Source of the DNA: Desulfuromonadaceae bacterium
GTDB taxonomy: Bacteria; Desulfobacterota; Desulfuromonadia; Geobacterales; Pseudopelobacteraceae
Assembly (NCBI GenBank): GCA_028686055.1
Contig: JAQUCU010000008.1
Span: 1-32,750 of the forward strand
Direction: 5' to 3'
DNA: 32,750 bases
Below the pieces are notes generated by a model that was not told the DNA's origin, made no database searches, and saw only the letters and a program-made list of their open reading frames with translations. The stretch's first letter is position 1; each line of letters begins with the position of its first letter. The position numbers and the translations under genes were made by a program. This document shows positions 90 to 32,750 of the stretch, piece by piece.

Positions 90-1079
90 CTATGCATCAT
101 CAACGCACCGGTTACCCATGATTGAAATCAGCTTTTTTGCATGGGATCTGGATATCCCCAATGAACATGTAAGCGCCTGAAGGAATACGCGCAGATTCCA
201 TGTGCGACAATATGCTTTCCAGAGGCACATGCGGGCACGAGGATCATCATGCACATATAATAAATATGCAGCCCCCGACAACATCCTAGTCCATCTCTGT
301 CGCTGGTCAAAAGTCAGCAAATCAGATTTAAGCCATTTTTCGTATATCAAAAACTGTGAATAACTGTGATTTGCCGTAGGCGCAGCAAATAATGTCCGGA
401 TCATTGACGTAGCTACAATCCGGTAGCTGGCAACAGTTCCCGGGCAGAAGACAAAATTATATACTACGGACAAACGAAGCCACATGTCGTAATCCTCGTA
501 AGTCAAACGCTCATCATATCCACCCACAGCTTCAATCGCCTTCCGGCGGATGAGTGTTGACATTGCCGGGATAAAATTGTGATCTACAAGGTGCGAAAAG
601 ATCCTCCCCGAAGGCACATCACTGCCAGTGAAGTTCGCCTCGATGAATCTTTCAGCCAGTTTACGTCCCGACTCGTCCACTTGTGCGGCATCAGAAAAGA
701 CCACGGCCACCTGCTCCGGCTGTGCCTGCATAAGTGCCACCTGGTGCTCGATTTTTTCTGGTTCCCAGGTATCGTCGGTGGCAATCATACTTATATATTC
801 GCCTTGAGTATGGGACAACGCCTCATTTAATGACTTACAAACACCTACATTCCGGGTATGGGCAATAAACGTGCAATAAACTCCATTTTTTTCAATCCAG
901 TCGCTGATAATGAAGACCGATCTATCCCTGGAACAGTCATCCATAATTATTAGTTCGGTGTTGGTGTACGTCTGTTCGCGAATATGCTCTAGACACTCGA
1001 CAACGTATTTTTCATGGTTATAGCAAAGAGCGATAATGGTAACTAAGGGAAGATCCGATTTGACGGCAGTTTTTAACAT
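90..1079 (-). CDS. Family 2 glycosyltransferase
   Basis: N-terminal LVTIIALCYNHEKYVVECLEHIREQTYTNTELIIMDDCSRDRS (GT2 nucleotide-sugar binding pattern); 329 aa. Confidence 0.9.
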   Translation of the reverse strand: MLKTAVKSDLPLVTIIALCYNHEKYVVECLEHIREQTYTNTELIIMDDCSRDRSVFIISDWIEKNGVYCTFIAHTRNVGVCKSLNEALSHTQGEYISMIATDDTWEPEKIEHQVALMQAQPEQVAVVFSDAAQVDESGRKLAERFIEANFTGSDVPSGRIFSHLVDHNFIPAMSTLIRRKAIEAVGGYDERLTYEDYDMWLRLSVVYNFVFCPGTVASYRIVATSMIRTLFAAPTANHSYSQFLIYEKWLKSDLLTFDQRQRWTRMLSGAAYLLYVHDDPRARMCLWKAYCRTWNLRVFLQALTCSLGISRSHAKKLISIMGNRCVDDA

Positions 1080-3202: not shown

Positions 3203-4687
3203 CTACTGCTTGGCTATAAAACCCACCTCTCCAAGAATACCCCTGAATTCGATGATATAACGCCCTTTAGTTGCAAGGCTGTGCACGATGATAAAAAGTA
3301 AGGCTGCAGCAATACCCTTCTTGAAAAATCCGGCAAGGCTGTATTCGAAAATGTTTTCCCACGTAAAAAAGACAAAAACTACCACTATCGATGCAATAAA
3401 TGATGGCCATACGACTGAGAGCAACTCACGCCACTGTACATCAACAACCCTCCGGAGACCTGGGATATAGATAGGCAATTGGATAAACGTTACGCCCAGA
3501 AGGAGAAGAGCCAGTCCTTCGATACCAAAATATTTAAGAACCGGGTAAACCAGGGAAAGCTGAACTATTGCAACGAGCAGATCGGATACGAGAAAAATCC
3601 TTGAATTTCCTACTGCAAGGAAAACAGGCGCAACCATGTAAATCATTATCCTGAAAATGCCGTAAATACACAATATCTGAAAGCTGCTGACCGCGGGAAG
3701 CCACTTATCAGTCCCTTTGCCGAGAACAAAACAGAGAAACTCAGATGCCGTTACAAAAAGGGTGATATTGAGCATGGCGGAAACCACGGTGACATAACCA
3801 AGTCCCTGGAGAAATACGTTCTTCATTTTAGGCAGGTTATCCTGAAATCGGGCAAACGTTGGATTCAAAACACTCATAACCACACCGAGAATGACGGTAA
3901 AAACCATTGATCCCCAGCTTGCGGCAAGGTTGTAATACCCGAGTGATGTTGCTCCATTGACAGCCCCTACCACAAAGCTATTGACGTTTAGTATCGCAAA
4001 GGCAACAAGACCGGTAAGAAACAGGTTACCTCCAAACCGAAAATATTCCATAGCGACTGAACTATCGAGACAAAACCTGATTTTGATCGGTTTTATTATA
4101 TTCATAAGAGTGACGGAACAGACCATGGTGAACAGGTTGGCAATCACCAAGCTCCAGAAGCTAAAACCGCTGTACGCCAAAGTGATAGCTATCAAGGATG
4201 TTGCAATACTTGAAATCATATTTATTGACGAAATAGCTTTAAAGTTAAGCTCACGAGTCAACAGAACAGATGGGATAAACTGGAAAAAATTTATCAGAAA
4301 TTGCAAGGAACTGACTCGGACTACGTTTACTATTACCGGATTATCAAAGAACAACCCGGCAATAGGCGCCCCAACAAACGTTATGAGGAACAGAGCCAGC
4401 CCTAATAGAAACTTCATGGTAAAGCCGGTATAGAGCTGATCATCTGACAGAGTTAAGCGGCGAGTTACCGCGCCGCTTATGCCAAAATCATTGAACTGGT
4501 TGATAAATGCAATAAAGACGTAAGCTAAACCAAGAATGCCATAATCAGCCGGAAGGAGAATACGAGTAAGAATGATATTTGCCACAGCCTGCACCGCCAT
4601 GGAAAAGAACTTGGAAATAGTATTGTATCCTATATTTTTTAATGTTTTTGACCTAAGAGAGTCATTCATAAATACCTGTTGAAACAT
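3203..4687 (-). CDS. Polysaccharide flippase, MOP superfamily (WzxC-like)
   Basis: SKTLKNIGYNTISKFFSMAVQAVANIILTRILLPADYGILGLAYVFIAFINQFNDFGISGAV; many hydrophobic segments; 494 aa. True start may be the internal Met (MNDSLRSK). Confidence 0.9.
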   Translation of the reverse strand: MFQQVFMNDSLRSKTLKNIGYNTISKFFSMAVQAVANIILTRILLPADYGILGLAYVFIAFINQFNDFGISGAVTRRLTLSDDQLYTGFTMKFLLGLALFLITFVGAPIAGLFFDNPVIVNVVRVSSLQFLINFFQFIPSVLLTRELNFKAISSINMISSIATSLIAITLAYSGFSFWSLVIANLFTMVCSVTLMNIIKPIKIRFCLDSSVAMEYFRFGGNLFLTGLVAFAILNVNSFVVGAVNGATSLGYYNLAASWGSMVFTVILGVVMSVLNPTFARFQDNLPKMKNVFLQGLGYVTVVSAMLNITLFVTASEFLCFVLGKGTDKWLPAVSSFQILCIYGIFRIMIYMVAPVFLAVGNSRIFLVSDLLVAIVQLSLVYPVLKYFGIEGLALLLLGVTFIQLPIYIPGLRRVVDVQWRELLSVVWPSFIASIVVVFVFFTWENIFEYSLAGFFKKGIAAALLFIIVHSLATKGRYIIEFRGILGEVGFIAKQ

Positions 4688-6497: not shown

Positions 6498-7631
6498 TCA
6501 TCGCGACACAGTCAGCTTCCAATGGCTATATTTCTCGATAAGAAGCGGAACAAATTCTTCGGTGGCCTTTTTAAGGCCAGCTGACGAAGGATGATTGTCA
6601 CCAGGCTTGCGGGGATAAAGTAGTACATGATTATCAAACGCGACGACATGCTGTTCCACTCCTTTCCACAGGCGATGATGATTTCCTTGTTCCTCACCGA
6701 CATCGGATTCATTAGGTCCATGCCCTGATGTCAGCACGTTATACAGATCAAAAACCATGACATTCTTGAGTGGATATTTATTTTCTCTGAGCCAATCATT
6801 ATAGAGCCAGCTCGTAAAGCCTCTTGCGATCCGTCCGTTCTCCGGCAGTTCCAACCGTGGCGGGGGCGTTACAATAACAAAGAATTTGTCGGGACGGCTT
6901 TTGAAATAAGCAAGCGCATCATTAAATGCCCTCTTGGCATTTGCTACAGTATGCGACTCTGAACCGGCTGGATAGTTTAGAGGTGGTACAGCATCGGCGT
7001 TTGCTTTATCATTCGGTCTACCTTTCAGCAATGTATTGGGATAACAGGACTTAAAGACGACTATTTCGTTCTCCTTGCCCGCCACCAGCGCGGCAAGCCG
7101 TCCATTATTTGCATGATCGCCGAAACGGTCGGTTTCGTTATTTTCTGCATACACCGCCCGCATGATCATGTTAGAGTCCGGACCGGCAAACCAGTCATAC
7201 ATGTTACCGATATCAGTTCTATTGCCGATTCCGTAGGCGCCACGGTCATCACGTTTTAGAAGCTTAAGCAACTTTCTCTTGATCCGCTTTGTTTCAGTAT
7301 CGGTCAGCTCTTTGGGTTCCCAATCATAGGTAATGTCATTAACATATATATTATTCTGGTTCAGTGCCTTCACAAGGCCGCCGTCGTTGTGTGACAACCA
7401 ATGACCGCCTACAGAGTGATGTATGAAGATCAGTTTATGAGCCAATGACGAGCTGACGCCAGACTTACTATCATTAACCTCATTCATACCAGATACCGCC
7501 TCTGTTTTTTGTGATAAAGCTGCATTTTTCAGGTAGCCAATACACCAAGTAGCCATTTGTAAAATAAGACCACAACCGATTATTATAAATACAATTTTAA
7601 CAAATATTTTTGTTTTTTTCATATTATGCAT
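6498..7631 (-). CDS. Membrane-anchored or secreted protein with SGNH-hydrolase-like features, uncharacterised
   Basis: N-terminal hydrophobic segment (FVKIVFIIIGCGLILQMATWCIGYL); LIFIHHSVGGHWL; ...KFFVIVTPPPRLEL...; C-terminal DNHPSSAGLKKATEEFVPLL (D-x-x-H like SGNH block V). Start may be at Met4 (7622). Confidence 0.6.
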   Translation of the reverse strand: MHNMKKTKIFVKIVFIIIGCGLILQMATWCIGYLKNAALSQKTEAVSGMNEVNDSKSGVSSSLAHKLIFIHHSVGGHWLSHNDGGLVKALNQNNIYVNDITYDWEPKELTDTETKRIKRKLLKLLKRDDRGAYGIGNRTDIGNMYDWFAGPDSNMIMRAVYAENNETDRFGDHANNGRLAALVAGKENEIVVFKSCYPNTLLKGRPNDKANADAVPPLNYPAGSESHTVANAKRAFNDALAYFKSRPDKFFVIVTPPPRLELPENGRIARGFTSWLYNDWLRENKYPLKNVMVFDLYNVLTSGHGPNESDVGEEQGNHHRLWKGVEQHVVAFDNHVLLYPRKPGDNHPSSAGLKKATEEFVPLLIEKYSHWKLTVSR

Positions 7632-7660
7632 ACTCCAACGCAGATATTAGCAGGTTATAC

Positions 7661-7690
7661 TCTCGGTTTTCTCGGTTTTCTCGGTTTTCT
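7661..7690. repeat. 9-bp tandem repeat (TCTCGGTTT)x3.3
   Basis: Direct reading: TCTCGGTTT TCTCGGTTT TCTCGGTTT TCT, about 30 bp upstream of the minus-strand gene starting at 7631. Confidence 0.95.
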
Positions 7691-7874
7691 TGATTTGATG
7701 TCGATATAATTGACACAACGCACGGCAAAAAGAGTTACCCAACTATATACAACGATTACATATGGCCCCTATAATTACAATAATCAAATTAAAAGTGGTT
7801 TTTAACTGTAAGGATTTGATGATTGAAGTGCTGTTCCATAATGACCCTCAAGAAAGATCTGAAATATCCATTAT

Positions 7875-7890
7875 TGTGATTTAAATCACT
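7875..7890. promoter_or_regulatory. Candidate CRP/FNR-family site
   Basis: TGTGA-TTTAAA-TCACT, with a perfect 14-bp palindrome GTGATTTAAATCAC (7876-7889). Confidence 0.4.
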
Positions 7891-7949
7891 TCACTTATCT
7901 TAAAAATAGTCGATGATGTGATCACAATCATACATAGTTTAGTCAATAG

Positions 7950-8030
7950 ATAAACGATAATACTAAACCATTCGCGAGGATGGGGCGGAAAGCCTACTGG
8001 GTCTCAAAGAGACAGCCGGGTTGCCGAAAT
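7950..8030 (+). ncRNA. GEMM-I family cyclic dinucleotide riboswitch, probable GEMM-Ib (3',3'-cGAMP) variant
   Basis: ATAATACTAAACCATTCGCGAGGATGGGGCGGAAAGCC...GGGTCTCAAAGAGACAGCCGGGTTGCCGAAAT. P2 hairpin CCATTC-GCGA-GGATGG with GNRA loop, core GGCGGAAAGCC, P3 GTCTC/GAGAC, 3' GGGTTGCCGAAA. 'AATACTAAACC' matches my recollection of the Geobacter GEMM-Ib aptamers, where A replaces the G at the Vc2 G20 position. Confidence 0.88.
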
Positions 8031-8060
8031 GCCTATTGGTTTTCGGCCCCCGGTTTTTTT
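8016..8060 (+). terminator. Intrinsic terminator forming the riboswitch expression platform
   Basis: CCGGG-TT-GCCGAAA (8016-8029) pairs with TTTCGGC-C-CCCGG (8041-8053), followed by TTTTTTT (8054-8060). The 5' arm is part of the aptamer. Confidence 0.9.
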
Positions 8061-8136
8061 CTATTTGTTAAACATATTTCTGGCCACAAAATTTGGCTAG
8101 GATATATTCAAAAGGACGTTGTTAAAGGAGTGAATA

Positions 8137-9096
8137 ATGAACGTCCGTAGATTGACATATACTCTTATGTACTTTTCTGTAATCTCACTGGGCTGGACAA
8201 ATCCGAGTTTCGCCGGCACTATTCTCTTTCAGGAACGTTTCGAAGATGTAAATATGAGCAGCAGGGAATGGTACGACAACACCAACCCGATTCTATCTAG
8301 CTTGGAACACGTTGCAAACAGCACCAAATCAGTGGAATTTCATTTCTCCAAAGGCGCTGTTTTGCCCAACAACGGTTCAACCATGAGAAAAAAAATTTTG
8401 GATACTGATTCTGTGTATATCAGCTACTACGTCAAGTATAGCTCAAGCTGGGTCGGGTCGGGTGTATCTTACCATCCGCATGAGTTTTACCTTTTGACCA
8501 ACAAGGATACAGATTGGATCGGTCCTGCCTATACTCATCTGACAGTGTACCTGGAGGAAAATGCAGGTAAACCCCTGATAGCAATCCAAGACGGAGTCAA
8601 TATTGACACTGCAAATATCGGTAAAGACTTGACCACCATCACCGAAAAAAGGGGCGTTGCCGGATGCAATGGCGACAGCGATGGTTATGGCAACGGAGAT
8701 TGTTATGCTAATGGTGGCGCTTACTGGAACGGCAAAATATGGAAAGCCAGCAGTGTCATTTTTTCCAATGTCACCGGTCCGAATTACAAATCTGAGTGGC
8801 ACCTGATTGAGGCTTACGTCAAACTCAACAGTATTGCCAACAGCAAGGCAGTTAAGGACGGGATTATCCAATACTGGTTTGACGGCAGTCCTGTTCTGGA
8901 TTACAAAAACGTGGTGTTCCGTACCGCAATTAACCCCGATATGAAATTTAACCAGTTTATCATTGGACCCTACATTGGCGTTGGCTCACCCGTTGATCAA
9001 ACCTTCTGGGTGGACAACCTGGTAGTGGCAACAGACAGAACCACCAACACACAACCGTCTTCACCACAAAATTTAAGGATAGTCACTGTGAAATAA
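8137..9096 (+). CDS. Secreted protein, probable concanavalin/LamG-like jelly-roll fold
   Basis: RBS AAGGAG upstream; signal peptide MNVRRLTYTLMYFSVISLGWTNPSFA-G; ILFQERFEDVNMSSREWYDN; C-terminal FWVDNLVVATD. First gene after the riboswitch. Confidence 0.75.
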   Translation: MNVRRLTYTLMYFSVISLGWTNPSFAGTILFQERFEDVNMSSREWYDNTNPILSSLEHVANSTKSVEFHFSKGAVLPNNGSTMRKKILDTDSVYISYYVKYSSSWVGSGVSYHPHEFYLLTNKDTDWIGPAYTHLTVYLEENAGKPLIAIQDGVNIDTANIGKDLTTITEKRGVAGCNGDSDGYGNGDCYANGGAYWNGKIWKASSVIFSNVTGPNYKSEWHLIEAYVKLNSIANSKAVKDGIIQYWFDGSPVLDYKNVVFRTAINPDMKFNQFIIGPYIGVGSPVDQTFWVDNLVVATDRTTNTQPSSPQNLRIVTVK

Positions 9097-9185
9097 AATC
9101 TGGTATCAACCTTTTTTTGGCATAATTTAGTCAACAGATCATGCAACACGGATATTTTTCAAAAAAAATCAAACGGGAGTTAAAA

Positions 9186-9989
9186 ATGATAAAACTTACA
9201 ATCCCATCCTTATTGGCTGCAGTAGCACTACTAGTAGCGACCTCTTCCTTTGCTGCTATTTTTTATCAGAATGATTTCAATAACCAGTCTGCCGGAGCAT
9301 TATCCCTGGACAGTAGTTGGCAAATCATGACGTCAGGCGGAATCGGTAATTCTGCAGCTATCCGCTTAACGTATAACAAAGCGGGAACATCCGGTACTCA
9401 AGCAGTACTGCCCCTTTCCGCATTTAACACCCAGGAGTTTTGGCTTGAATTCGACACAAAGATTGAAGGGACAATGAATGGAGGCATGAAATTTGTGAAA
9501 GTTTTTGGCTCACTTAGCACTCCGAGCCAAAATAATTCTACTTTTATAATGGACTACAACGATAATATTATGAATAGAGTGTGCTATTATGGTGATACTA
9601 TTTGTGAAAAACGCCTTGATGGGTCTCCTGGTTATGACGCTTCTTGCCATGCCACCCCGGTTACAACGGTAAGCTCAATTGATTTACGAGGGGGTACATG
9701 GCACCACGTCAAGATACATTTTGTACGGGCAGCTCCGGGTACAGATTCCGGAGAATATCGAATTTGGATTGATGGCGTTGAAAAAGCTTACTTTACCAAA
9801 GTGAACAATAACAGTCCGACTGAAAGCGCAACATCCAGTATTTCTGCGATCACGTTTGGTGACTATACTAATTCCAATGACTCGACCTGGTATTTCTGGA
9901 TCGACAATTTGTCTGTATCGTCAACTGACTTAACAAGCTCTTTAACGGCATTGGCACCACCGACAAACCTTAAAGCAACACCAATGTAA
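9186..9989 (+). CDS. Secreted protein, probable concanavalin/LamG-like fold, likely paralogue of the preceding gene
   Basis: Start moved from 9141 to Met at 9186 (GGGAG RBS). Signal peptide MIKLTIPSLLAAVALLVATSSFA-A; IFYQNDFNNQSAGALSLDSSW; WHHVKIHFVRA; FWIDNLSVSS; C-terminus APPTNLKATPM. Confidence 0.75.
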   Translation: MIKLTIPSLLAAVALLVATSSFAAIFYQNDFNNQSAGALSLDSSWQIMTSGGIGNSAAIRLTYNKAGTSGTQAVLPLSAFNTQEFWLEFDTKIEGTMNGGMKFVKVFGSLSTPSQNNSTFIMDYNDNIMNRVCYYGDTICEKRLDGSPGYDASCHATPVTTVSSIDLRGGTWHHVKIHFVRAAPGTDSGEYRIWIDGVEKAYFTKVNNNSPTESATSSISAITFGDYTNSNDSTWYFWIDNLSVSSTDLTSSLTALAPPTNLKATPM

Positions 9990-17645: not shown

Positions 17646-18292
17646 TTTTCAACGGGCCAATTACTAGGCAATTGATTGAGCACAATCTCGGCAAATTGCT
17701 CTACCCTCTGTTTTGTCTTCGAAACATCTTCATCCGCAGAATTTGCTGTTATTCGAACAAACGCCCCGTCGTTGCGATTGTGCAGAATCCTTCCCGTAAA
17801 GCGTTCAATATTCTGGCTCAATCCTGTTGAAATAACCGTCTTTCCTGCAGTTTGGTACCAGTGAAGCATGACAGTATTGGCGCCATCCATGCGAGACAGA
17901 ACGTAATTAACCGGGATACTTTTGCCGGTCGCTATCTGTTTGAGATGTACAATTCCGGTGTCGACAATCGCCGCTCCGCTTCCAGGCAGACAGGCATAGG
18001 GATTATGGCCGGTTCTGCCGCCTTTTGCAGTGCCGTAATAGCCGATATACAGGTCAAGCTGATCGCCGTTTTGCGACTTGTAATGTCGGTAAATATTCTT
18101 ATCAGCATTCAGTTCCTTATATACGGCAGCTGAGAATGAATCCTCCGTAGCGGTATATCCGGAAATAACCATTGGCAGTTTTTCAAGATTTGCCTGAACA
18201 ACAACCGGCACCGACCTGGAGGATTGTGCAGCAACGGCACATAGAGCTAACAGCAACATCACAAGAGATAGTGTGAAGGTTTTATTTGACAT
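17642..18292 (-). CDS. epsI: EpsI family exosortase-associated protein
   Basis: Signal/TM start; LDLYIGYYGTAKGGRTGHNPYACLPGSGAAIV, VNYVLSRMDGANTVMLHWYQTAGKTV; directly follows exosortase with an 11-bp overlap. Confidence 0.88.
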   Translation of the reverse strand: MSNKTFTLSLVMLLLALCAVAAQSSRSVPVVVQANLEKLPMVISGYTATEDSFSAAVYKELNADKNIYRHYKSQNGDQLDLYIGYYGTAKGGRTGHNPYACLPGSGAAIVDTGIVHLKQIATGKSIPVNYVLSRMDGANTVMLHWYQTAGKTVISTGLSQNIERFTGRILHNRNDGAFVRITANSADEDVSKTKQRVEQFAEIVLNQLPSNWPVEK

Positions 18293-19115
18293 CCGCGCTC
18301 TTCTTTCTGTTGATCAGGGCAAAAACACCCAACAATGCCATGAAACCGAAAACAAAGATGGCGATACCCGAGAATTCGTGGAGAAAGCCTCTCGCAACCT
18401 TGTCCCCGTAAAAGTTGGCCAACACCCCTGTGCCCGCGATACGGATTATGTTGGCCACCATAGCTATTGGTACTGCCGATGCTATCAGGATGGCATTATT
18501 CTTCCATCCACCATGCCGCATGCCTGTAAAGGCAAAGGCAATCATCAATAGAGACATTATTGATCGGATGCCGCTGCACGCTTCGGCAACTTCCAGCTGG
18601 GTCCCGACAAAATAGAGCATGTTGCCTTCGCGAAAGACAGGGATGTAACAAGCCCCTATGATCCCGGCGGATATTTTCGTGGCCATAAGCTGCAGAGGGG
18701 CAGAAACGAGACTTAACAGCGAATACGGCACGGGGATCATAAACAGCAGAAACAGGACAGGAAACGCGAGGATTCTGATCATCTCGCTGCCCAGGGTAAA
18801 CCAGATCAGGCCAAACAACGAAAAAACCATCGCAACCCTTGCCGGAAAGGCCACCCCGCCTGCGTAGCAGAGCAGATAGAGCGCCAGGAACAGGAACAGC
18901 AGGACGCCTCCCCACCACGAACTGCTAATGGTCGGCGGATTCAACTGTTTGATTCTTTCCCAGGCAAAATAACCGGCCACAAACGGCACGATAAAACCGT
19001 GGGAGTTATCGGAGTGACCGTACCAATCACGGAGAAGCTCCGGGTAGAGCGGATAAAAAACCACAACCCAAAGCAGAATAAGTATCGCTATTTTTATCCT
19101 GTCATGCTTCGACAT
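18282..19115 (-). CDS. xrtA: Exosortase (XrtA/EpsH-type)
   Basis: SDNSHGFIVPFVAGYFAWERI, AEACSGIRSIMSLLMIAFAF (Cys), MVANIIRIAGTGVLANFYG (Arg), HEFSGIAIFVFGFMAL (His); multi-TM; 277 aa. Confidence 0.93.
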   Translation of the reverse strand: MSKHDRIKIAILILLWVVVFYPLYPELLRDWYGHSDNSHGFIVPFVAGYFAWERIKQLNPPTISSSWWGGVLLFLFLALYLLCYAGGVAFPARVAMVFSLFGLIWFTLGSEMIRILAFPVLFLLFMIPVPYSLLSLVSAPLQLMATKISAGIIGACYIPVFREGNMLYFVGTQLEVAEACSGIRSIMSLLMIAFAFTGMRHGGWKNNAILIASAVPIAMVANIIRIAGTGVLANFYGDKVARGFLHEFSGIAIFVFGFMALLGVFALINRKKSADVK

Positions 19116-31779: not shown

Positions 31780-32750
31780 ATGCCGACAAAGGCAAAAATA
31801 CTTTTGGCGGAAGATGATGGCGTTTCAGCGCGATATTTGAAACAGTCATTAGCCCGCATGGGGTATGAGATAACAGGCATGATTCAGGCCGGTGAAGAGG
31901 TCATCGAGTCGGTCGCAGAAAATCAGCCGGATTTGATCATTATGGACATTACCCTTGGCGGAAAAGTCGACGGAATAACCGCAGCGCAAAATGTACTTAC
32001 CCGGTTCGGTATTCCCGTTATCTATGTTACCGGCAATACAGATATTGATATTTTTGAGCGGGCCAAACTTACGGAACCGTATGCTTATCTCATCAAGCCA
32101 TATGAACTTGGCCAGCTGCAAAACACCATCGAGTTAGCCCTGTTCAAGCACACCTTCGAAAGCAGGTTAAAGGAGAGTGAGACCAGGTATCGCACAATAT
32201 TCGATGTAAGTGACAATGCAATGATGCTGATAGATTCCAATTCTATTATCACCATGATCAATGAGCAATTTGCGAACATGTTGGGGTGTTCAAAAGAATC
32301 AGTGGAACACAAGATGAACTGGACTGATTTTTTCACAGACAGTGACCGTATTAGACTTGAGAATGAACTGCAGCAGGTGCGGGGCGAAACCGGCGGGACA
32401 CCCGGTCGTTTCGAGACAACGCTTGTTGACAGGACAGGCCGTACAAGAATTGTTTATACGAATGTAAAGAAGTTCCCAGGTTCAAGTACATGTATTGTTT
32501 CCATGAATGATGTTTCGGAACTAAAACAGGCAGAGGCAGAAATTCGGGCGTTGAACGACAGGCTCAACAAGACGAATGAGGGGTTGAACGAGGAAATCAC
32601 CTTACGCGAAAGGATTGAAAAACAATTGCGGTATAAAGCAACCCATGACTATCTGACCGGCCTGCCTAATCGTGTCCTGTTCTTTGACCGTTTAAAACAG
32701 GCTATTGCCTTCGAAGAACGCCATAATACATTAATATCCCTGATGGTTCT
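31780..32750 (+). CDS. Response regulator REC-PAS-GGDEF protein (diguanylate cyclase-like), truncated at the window edge
   Basis: Open frame from ATG 31780 (GGAGGGGGG upstream): MPTKAKILLAEDDGVSARYLKQSLARMGYEITGMIQAGEEV...LIIMDITLGG...LIKPYE (REC); ESETRYRTIFDVSDNAMMLID... (PAS); YKATHDYLTGLPNRVLFFDRLKQAIA (GGDEF N-terminus). Missing from the ORF track because it has no stop in the window. Confidence 0.92.
   Translation, partial: MPTKAKILLAEDDGVSARYLKQSLARMGYEITGMIQAGEEVIESVAENQPDLIIMDITLGGKVDGITAAQNVLTRFGIPVIYVTGNTDIDIFERAKLTEPYAYLIKPYELGQLQNTIELALFKHTFESRLKESETRYRTIFDVSDNAMMLIDSNSIITMINEQFANMLGCSKESVEHKMNWTDFFTDSDRIRLENELQQVRGETGGTPGRFETTLVDRTGRTRIVYTNVKKFPGSSTCIVSMNDVSELKQAEAEIRALNDRLNKTNEGLNEEITLRERIEKQLRYKATHDYLTGLPNRVLFFDRLKQAIAFEERHNTLISLMV

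Follow-up and report, generated by a model that had tools for sequence, protein, structure and literature searches.

The window, by which we mean the whole 32,750-nucleotide stretch of DNA analysed here, is contig 159 of a Geobacterales assembly of 3.03 Mb in 306 contigs. We identified in it a unit of two forward-strand genes for polysaccharide-lyase-like proteins, P0001 (319 aa; 8137..9096) and P0002 (282 aa; 9141..9989); the second gene lies 44 bp downstream of the first and is probably cotranscribed with it. An AAAGGAG motif resembling a ribosome-binding site is found 5' of the ATG at 8137, and a scan of 7640–8140 for sigma-70 promoters gave three sites, compared with 2.3 expected. The genes profiled around this unit, which encode glycosyltransferases, a flippase, a Wzy-type protein, a deacetylase, DUF3485 and an exosortase (18282..19115, reverse strand; PF09721, E 1.4e-67), agree with the EPS/exosortase setting assigned in a preliminary description of this DNA. 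Beside the riboswitch, at 6498–7631 on the reverse strand, is the gene for a divergent protein of 377 aa, which had no Pfam or NCBIfam match and in which a membrane anchor was recognised by eye at the N terminus.

The GEMM-I aptamer and its terminator

Upstream of the gene for P0001, cmscan found a GEMM-I aptamer core at 7952..8028 (+), aligned over the full length of the RF01051 model (positions 1–87) with 49.0 bits and an E value of 7.7e-7; RF01051 was the sole Rfam family matched across the 32.75 kb. The preliminary description had claimed a full GEMM-I core within 7950–8060 and proposed an Infernal comparison with RF01051. That span is correct, the match exceeds the gathering score of 35, and P2 with its GNRA-type cap, the junction and P3 are all present in the cmscan alignment. 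The 5' segment AATACTAAACC (7959–7969) runs into the P2 hairpin (7968..7983, +; GCGA tetraloop at 7974–7977), which is followed by the junction GGCGGAAAGCC (7984–7994) and, further downstream, by GGGTTGCCGAAA (8018–8029). The 5' strand of P1, CAATAG (7944..7949, +), read directly from the DNA, is complementary to CTATTG at 8033–8038, and a 7-bp P1 helix is part of the minimum-energy fold of a transcript ending at 8040. The A said to occupy the G20 position of Vc2, the specificity nucleotide of GEMM-Ib, is A7962 (+); it aligns with Rfam column 11, which corresponds to that position in Vc2 numbering. Next to it is the 5' strand of P1.1, CU (7963..7964, +), which pairs in the cmscan alignment with GG at 7987–7988 and can still form a C-G and a U.G pair.

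In an alignment of 35 aptamers, 95.6% of the cells pair and both sides change in 12 of the 18 pairs; none of 500 shuffles reached the observed value, and slid controls were far lower. This covariation supports the P2 and P3 helices; for P2, both sides change in five of six pairs in the alignment of relatives. The pair of columns 12 and 37 is CG in 23 of the 35 sequences and GC in 12, and A20 is present without exception in the 23 Geobacterales aptamers of the CU/GG type that were aligned. Nucleotide 20 and P1.1 covary across columns 11–13 and 36–37, Geobacterales A20 aptamers having CU/GG and G20 aptamers GC/GC or GU/AC; A20 combined with a GC/GC P1.1 was seen at locus L003. A sequence taken as that of the crystallised Geobacter aptamer gave three matches in the order, with three mismatches, in two genomes; we do not use these matches as proof.

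Overlapping the aptamer is a predicted intrinsic terminator hairpin, absent from the preliminary description, at 8014..8055 (+; RNAfold, -25.6 kcal/mol for 8010–8065), with a T7 tract read from the sequence at 8054..8060 (+). The hairpin takes in the 3' strand of P3 and the conserved CC at 8024–8025. Folding of the growing transcript placed P1 in the best structure at 8040, with the terminator outcompeting the aptamer fold from about 8052–8054. Of 24 A20 sequences in an alignment, 22 keep the hairpin and the T-run, and the other two end short of the terminator region. The pilM switch of G. metallireducens follows an ON logic in which the terminator takes up a ligand-contacting C (PMC9262584); likewise, the hairpin predicted here would exclude the aptamer and covers the CC expected to contact the ligand. 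Because aptamer and terminator overlap, the ligand should turn the genes on. At low cGAMP, the nascent RNA would form the hairpin and T tract, sequestering the P3 3' strand and the CC, and transcription would end before the first lyase-like gene. At high cGAMP, as produced by a GacA-type Hypr GGDEF enzyme, the ligand-bound aptamer with its P1 (7944–7949/8033–8038) would persist and RNA polymerase would read into both genes.

The genome has many similar copies of this element, which might point to a decayed or non-regulatory relic of duplication. The window aptamer necessarily retains every column that is invariant among the 24 aligned A20 members, and aptamer and terminator have been retained before the same gene family across genera and families, which makes such a relic extremely improbable.

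Ligand specificity and the cyclases of the genome

In cmscan alignments and extracted sequences, the genome has 18 GEMM-I matches, 14 with A20 and four with G20 (C178, C240, C183 and C23). The window's ACT[A/C]AACC segment is shared by 13 of the 14 A20 members, and C118 has a GC/GC P1.1. A20 aptamers are located upstream of pilMNO, of an L,D-transpeptidase lipoprotein gene (in tandem), of genes for two DUF4382 lipoproteins (a multihaem cytochrome gene follows in one of these cases), and of genes for Kelch and fn3 proteins. The targets of the G20 aptamers, assigned by eye, are nucleotide-sugar genes together with genes for a lipoprotein, an fn3-like protein and a GGDEF-containing response-regulator protein. 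The GacA regulon measured in G. sulfurreducens includes pilMNOP and the GSU0181–0183 transpeptidases (PMC6456294).

The GacA orthologue of this genome is a REC-GGDEF protein whose gene is directly followed by hisS. As in Hypr GGDEF enzymes of the GacA type, it combines Ser at the nucleobase-contacting position with a GGDE[F/Y] motif (NDSHGHLVGS...GGDEY). Its best PDB chain is 6d9m, the Hypr GGDEF of G. metallireducens (E 1.7e-62; the next chain, 1.3e-40), with which it has 101 of 160 residues identical (63%), with GHLVGS conserved and the Ser aligned. A second cyclase fits GSU1937 as described in PMC8835794, having a HAMP domain, the Ser and a GGDDF motif. The start of a GGDEF domain is seen at 32638–32745 (+) of the window, where it runs off the contig end.

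The A20G substitution in the Gmet_0970 aptamer moves its selectivity from cGAMP to c-di-GMP (PMC6456294). Judged by its sequence, the window aptamer has cGAMP as its well-supported candidate ligand, and the preliminary assignment to cGAMP-type GEMM-Ib agrees with the A20 type and with the Hypr serine of the GacA orthologue; exclusive binding of cGAMP can only be presumed for this RNA, because the OmcST switch of the Geobacter cGAMP regulon answers both cGAMP and c-di-GMP (PMC6456294). That dual response, together with at least eight canonical Asp-type GGDEF domains in the genome, which make c-di-GMP very likely to be present, would suit an A20 aptamer of dual specificity, with the genes responding to both dinucleotides jointly and not to cGAMP alone. 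We consider this unlikely, given that the Gm0970 and pgcA switches are reported to be ~1600-fold and ~1200-fold selective, respectively (PMC8835794, PMC6456294), and that separate G20 aptamers exist in the same genome.

The Rfam family carries the name of c-di-GMP, and the window aptamer could in principle be an ordinary GEMM-Ia switch for that ligand, with A20 compensated elsewhere. Contigs of other phyla do have a different A20 subtype with a GC/GC P1.1, and some genomes with that subtype show Asp-type GGDEF alone among the domains read. However, mutation of A20 by itself alters the ligand in the Geobacter subtype (PMC6456294), and P1.1 looks clearly different in the G20 aptamers that this genome also carries, so that we regard an ordinary GEMM-Ia switch as highly improbable. 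The GEMM-Ia aptamer Vc2 shares its fold and covariance model (RF01051) with the window aptamer but has G20 and a G-C/G-C P1.1, whereas the window aptamer has A20 and C-U/G-G.

Taken with the terminator overlap, these features indicate that the window RNA is very probably a GEMM-Ib transcriptional ON riboswitch for 3',3'-cGAMP, located upstream of two genes for putatively secreted polysaccharide-lyase-like proteins. With the Geobacter GEMM-Ib systems (Gs1761 pgcA, Gm0970 and pilM) it shares A20, the aptamer/terminator overlap and a predicted ON logic, as well as co-occurrence in one genome with a Hypr GGDEF cyclase and with pilM and L,D-transpeptidase members. In contrast to the cytochrome and pilus genes that those systems control, its target would be a secreted polysaccharide-lyase-like pair in an EPS/exosortase locus.

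The two downstream genes

Both proteins match PF14099 just below its gathering score of 29.9 bits (P0001, E 4e-6, 27.3 bits; P0002, E 8.6e-7, 29.5 bits); the second-gene proteins at two related loci, L110 and L112, do pass this score, and weak matches to the PF21294 HMM were found in relatives. An AlphaFold2 model of P0001, based on an alignment of 16 relatives, had a pLDDT of 76.5 and shows a predicted beta jelly-roll closest in Foldseek to PL36, PL14 and PL20 lyases. The top eight PDB matches are PL36 and PL14 alginate lyases and PL20 glucuronan lyase, with TM-scores of 0.42–0.54 by query, and other jelly-rolls rank lower. Invariant in the 16 P0001 relatives are R84, K100, H115, Y138, E140, Q151, R172, N178 and H222. 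The window proteins have the predicted jelly-roll and weak PF14099 matches in common with vAL-1, glucuronan lyase A and Aly36B of the PL14, PL20 and PL36 families, but differ from them in falling below the Pfam cut-off and in the ~10–16% identity of the structural alignments. Catalysis is uncertain because the sequence similarity to characterised lyases is weak (2zzj, E 0.023), and since other jelly-roll proteins also match, the fold alone is no proof of it.

In the preliminary description, the pair had been called secreted lectin-like proteins. Secretion is in line with the putative signal peptides that we recognised by eye at the start of both P0001 and P0002. The lectin reading is not our first choice because both the HMM and the fold matches point toward lyases, and polysaccharide-lyase-like (PL14/PL20/PL36 fold) appears to be the better name for the gene pair. 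The proteins would probably trim, release or bind exopolysaccharide from the surrounding locus. A recent duplication does not account for the pair, for which BLASTP gives a short C-terminal match alone and no global similarity, nor is P0002 an equally conserved partner, with matches in just five of 141 genomes of the order.

Recurrence of the switch-gene pairing

P0001 has matches in 18 of the 141 order genomes, 16 of them strong (E below 1e-44). In 12 of these 16 genomes, the window included, a GEMM-I aptamer is found just upstream of the P0001-family gene or its operon, and all 12 aptamers have A20. No aptamer was found in the 9 kb fetched around the P0001 relative in three Geotalea genomes and one other genome of the order. 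A rough binomial estimate with ~15 aptamers per 4 Mb puts the chance of 12 in 16 at ~1e-33, a figure that overstates independence, as the genomes are related; the direction of the result, a pairing of switch and gene beyond chance, is not in doubt. Glycosyltransferase-like neighbours are present at 11 of the 12 loci, those of the window having been profiled and those of the relatives recognised by eye from ORF translations.

At locus L110, the P0001 orthologue follows an A20 aptamer and the adjoining relative of P0002 follows a G20 aptamer of its own. These two aptamers, one G20 and the other A20, lie at 2763–2854 and 4248–4324 on the reverse strand before neighbouring relatives of the window genes, and this locus could show directly how two dinucleotides divide control of one locus. 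At L120, a weak third GEMM-I-like match (3846–3927, 24.8 bits), possibly a decayed copy, separates the A20 aptamer from the gene. At L008, an A20 GEMM-I aptamer is followed after ~800 bp by a cobalamin riboswitch (535–724, reverse strand; 117.9 bits), which precedes apparent cobalamin genes.

A related arrangement is that of G. bemidjiensis Gbem_1796, Gbem_1798 and Gbem_1799, in which GEMM aptamers precede genes for secreted surface proteins. A stretch similar to P0001 occurs in one or more of these proteins, but they are much larger than P0001 and contain fn3 and bacterial Ig domains. Locus L118 is presumably this cluster, judging in part by its position. The preliminary description expected control of such genes to broaden the role of cGAMP. 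This was overstated because, in 2010, outer-surface proteins with fibronectin-III domains had already been described under GEMM control in G. bemidjiensis (PMC2996986), and a passage in PMC6456294, citing 2015 papers, places Geobacter GEMM-Ib ahead of genes for cytochromes, pili and polysaccharide biosynthesis. Our analysis corrects the identity of the gene products and adds the recurrent pairing of the switch with this gene family. The Geobacter cGAMP regulon is known mainly through cytochromes and pili, and a recurrent cGAMP switch before genes for putatively secreted lyase-like proteins in EPS loci would offer a testable link from cGAMP to the matrix where cells meet minerals.

In a scan of genome contigs, relatives of P0001 were found in contigs labelled with many phyla, although the taxon labels of MAGs may be wrong. 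A covariance search with a model built from the 35 aptamers detected GEMM-I near a few of these relatives, of the A20 type with a GC/GC P1.1 at L130, L145 and L169 and of the G20 type at L128 and L157. It is possible, and we propose it only tentatively, that control of the enzymatic remodelling of extracellular polysaccharide by cGAMP through A20 GEMM-I aptamers is a conserved output apart from electron transfer that extends beyond Geobacterales.

A distinct A20 subtype, CAGAGCAAA ... GCAGAG with a GC/GC P1.1, was seen at L130, L145, L169, L179–L181, L186, L187, L189, L192, L194, L199 and L200, in contigs labelled mostly Gemmatimonadota. By eye, it is largely located upstream of Ig-like or fn3-like lipoproteins, and hmmsearch detected a lyase-like domain in open frames downstream of the L180 and L189 aptamers. 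Among the subset of GGDEF matches read, no Ser-type domain was seen in genomes G141, G143 and G144; Ser with the GGDEF motif was present in G142, G146 and G147. This Gemmatimonadota-type A20 subtype before lyase-like lipoproteins, with Ser-type GGDEF in some of the carrier genomes, is offered as a lead.
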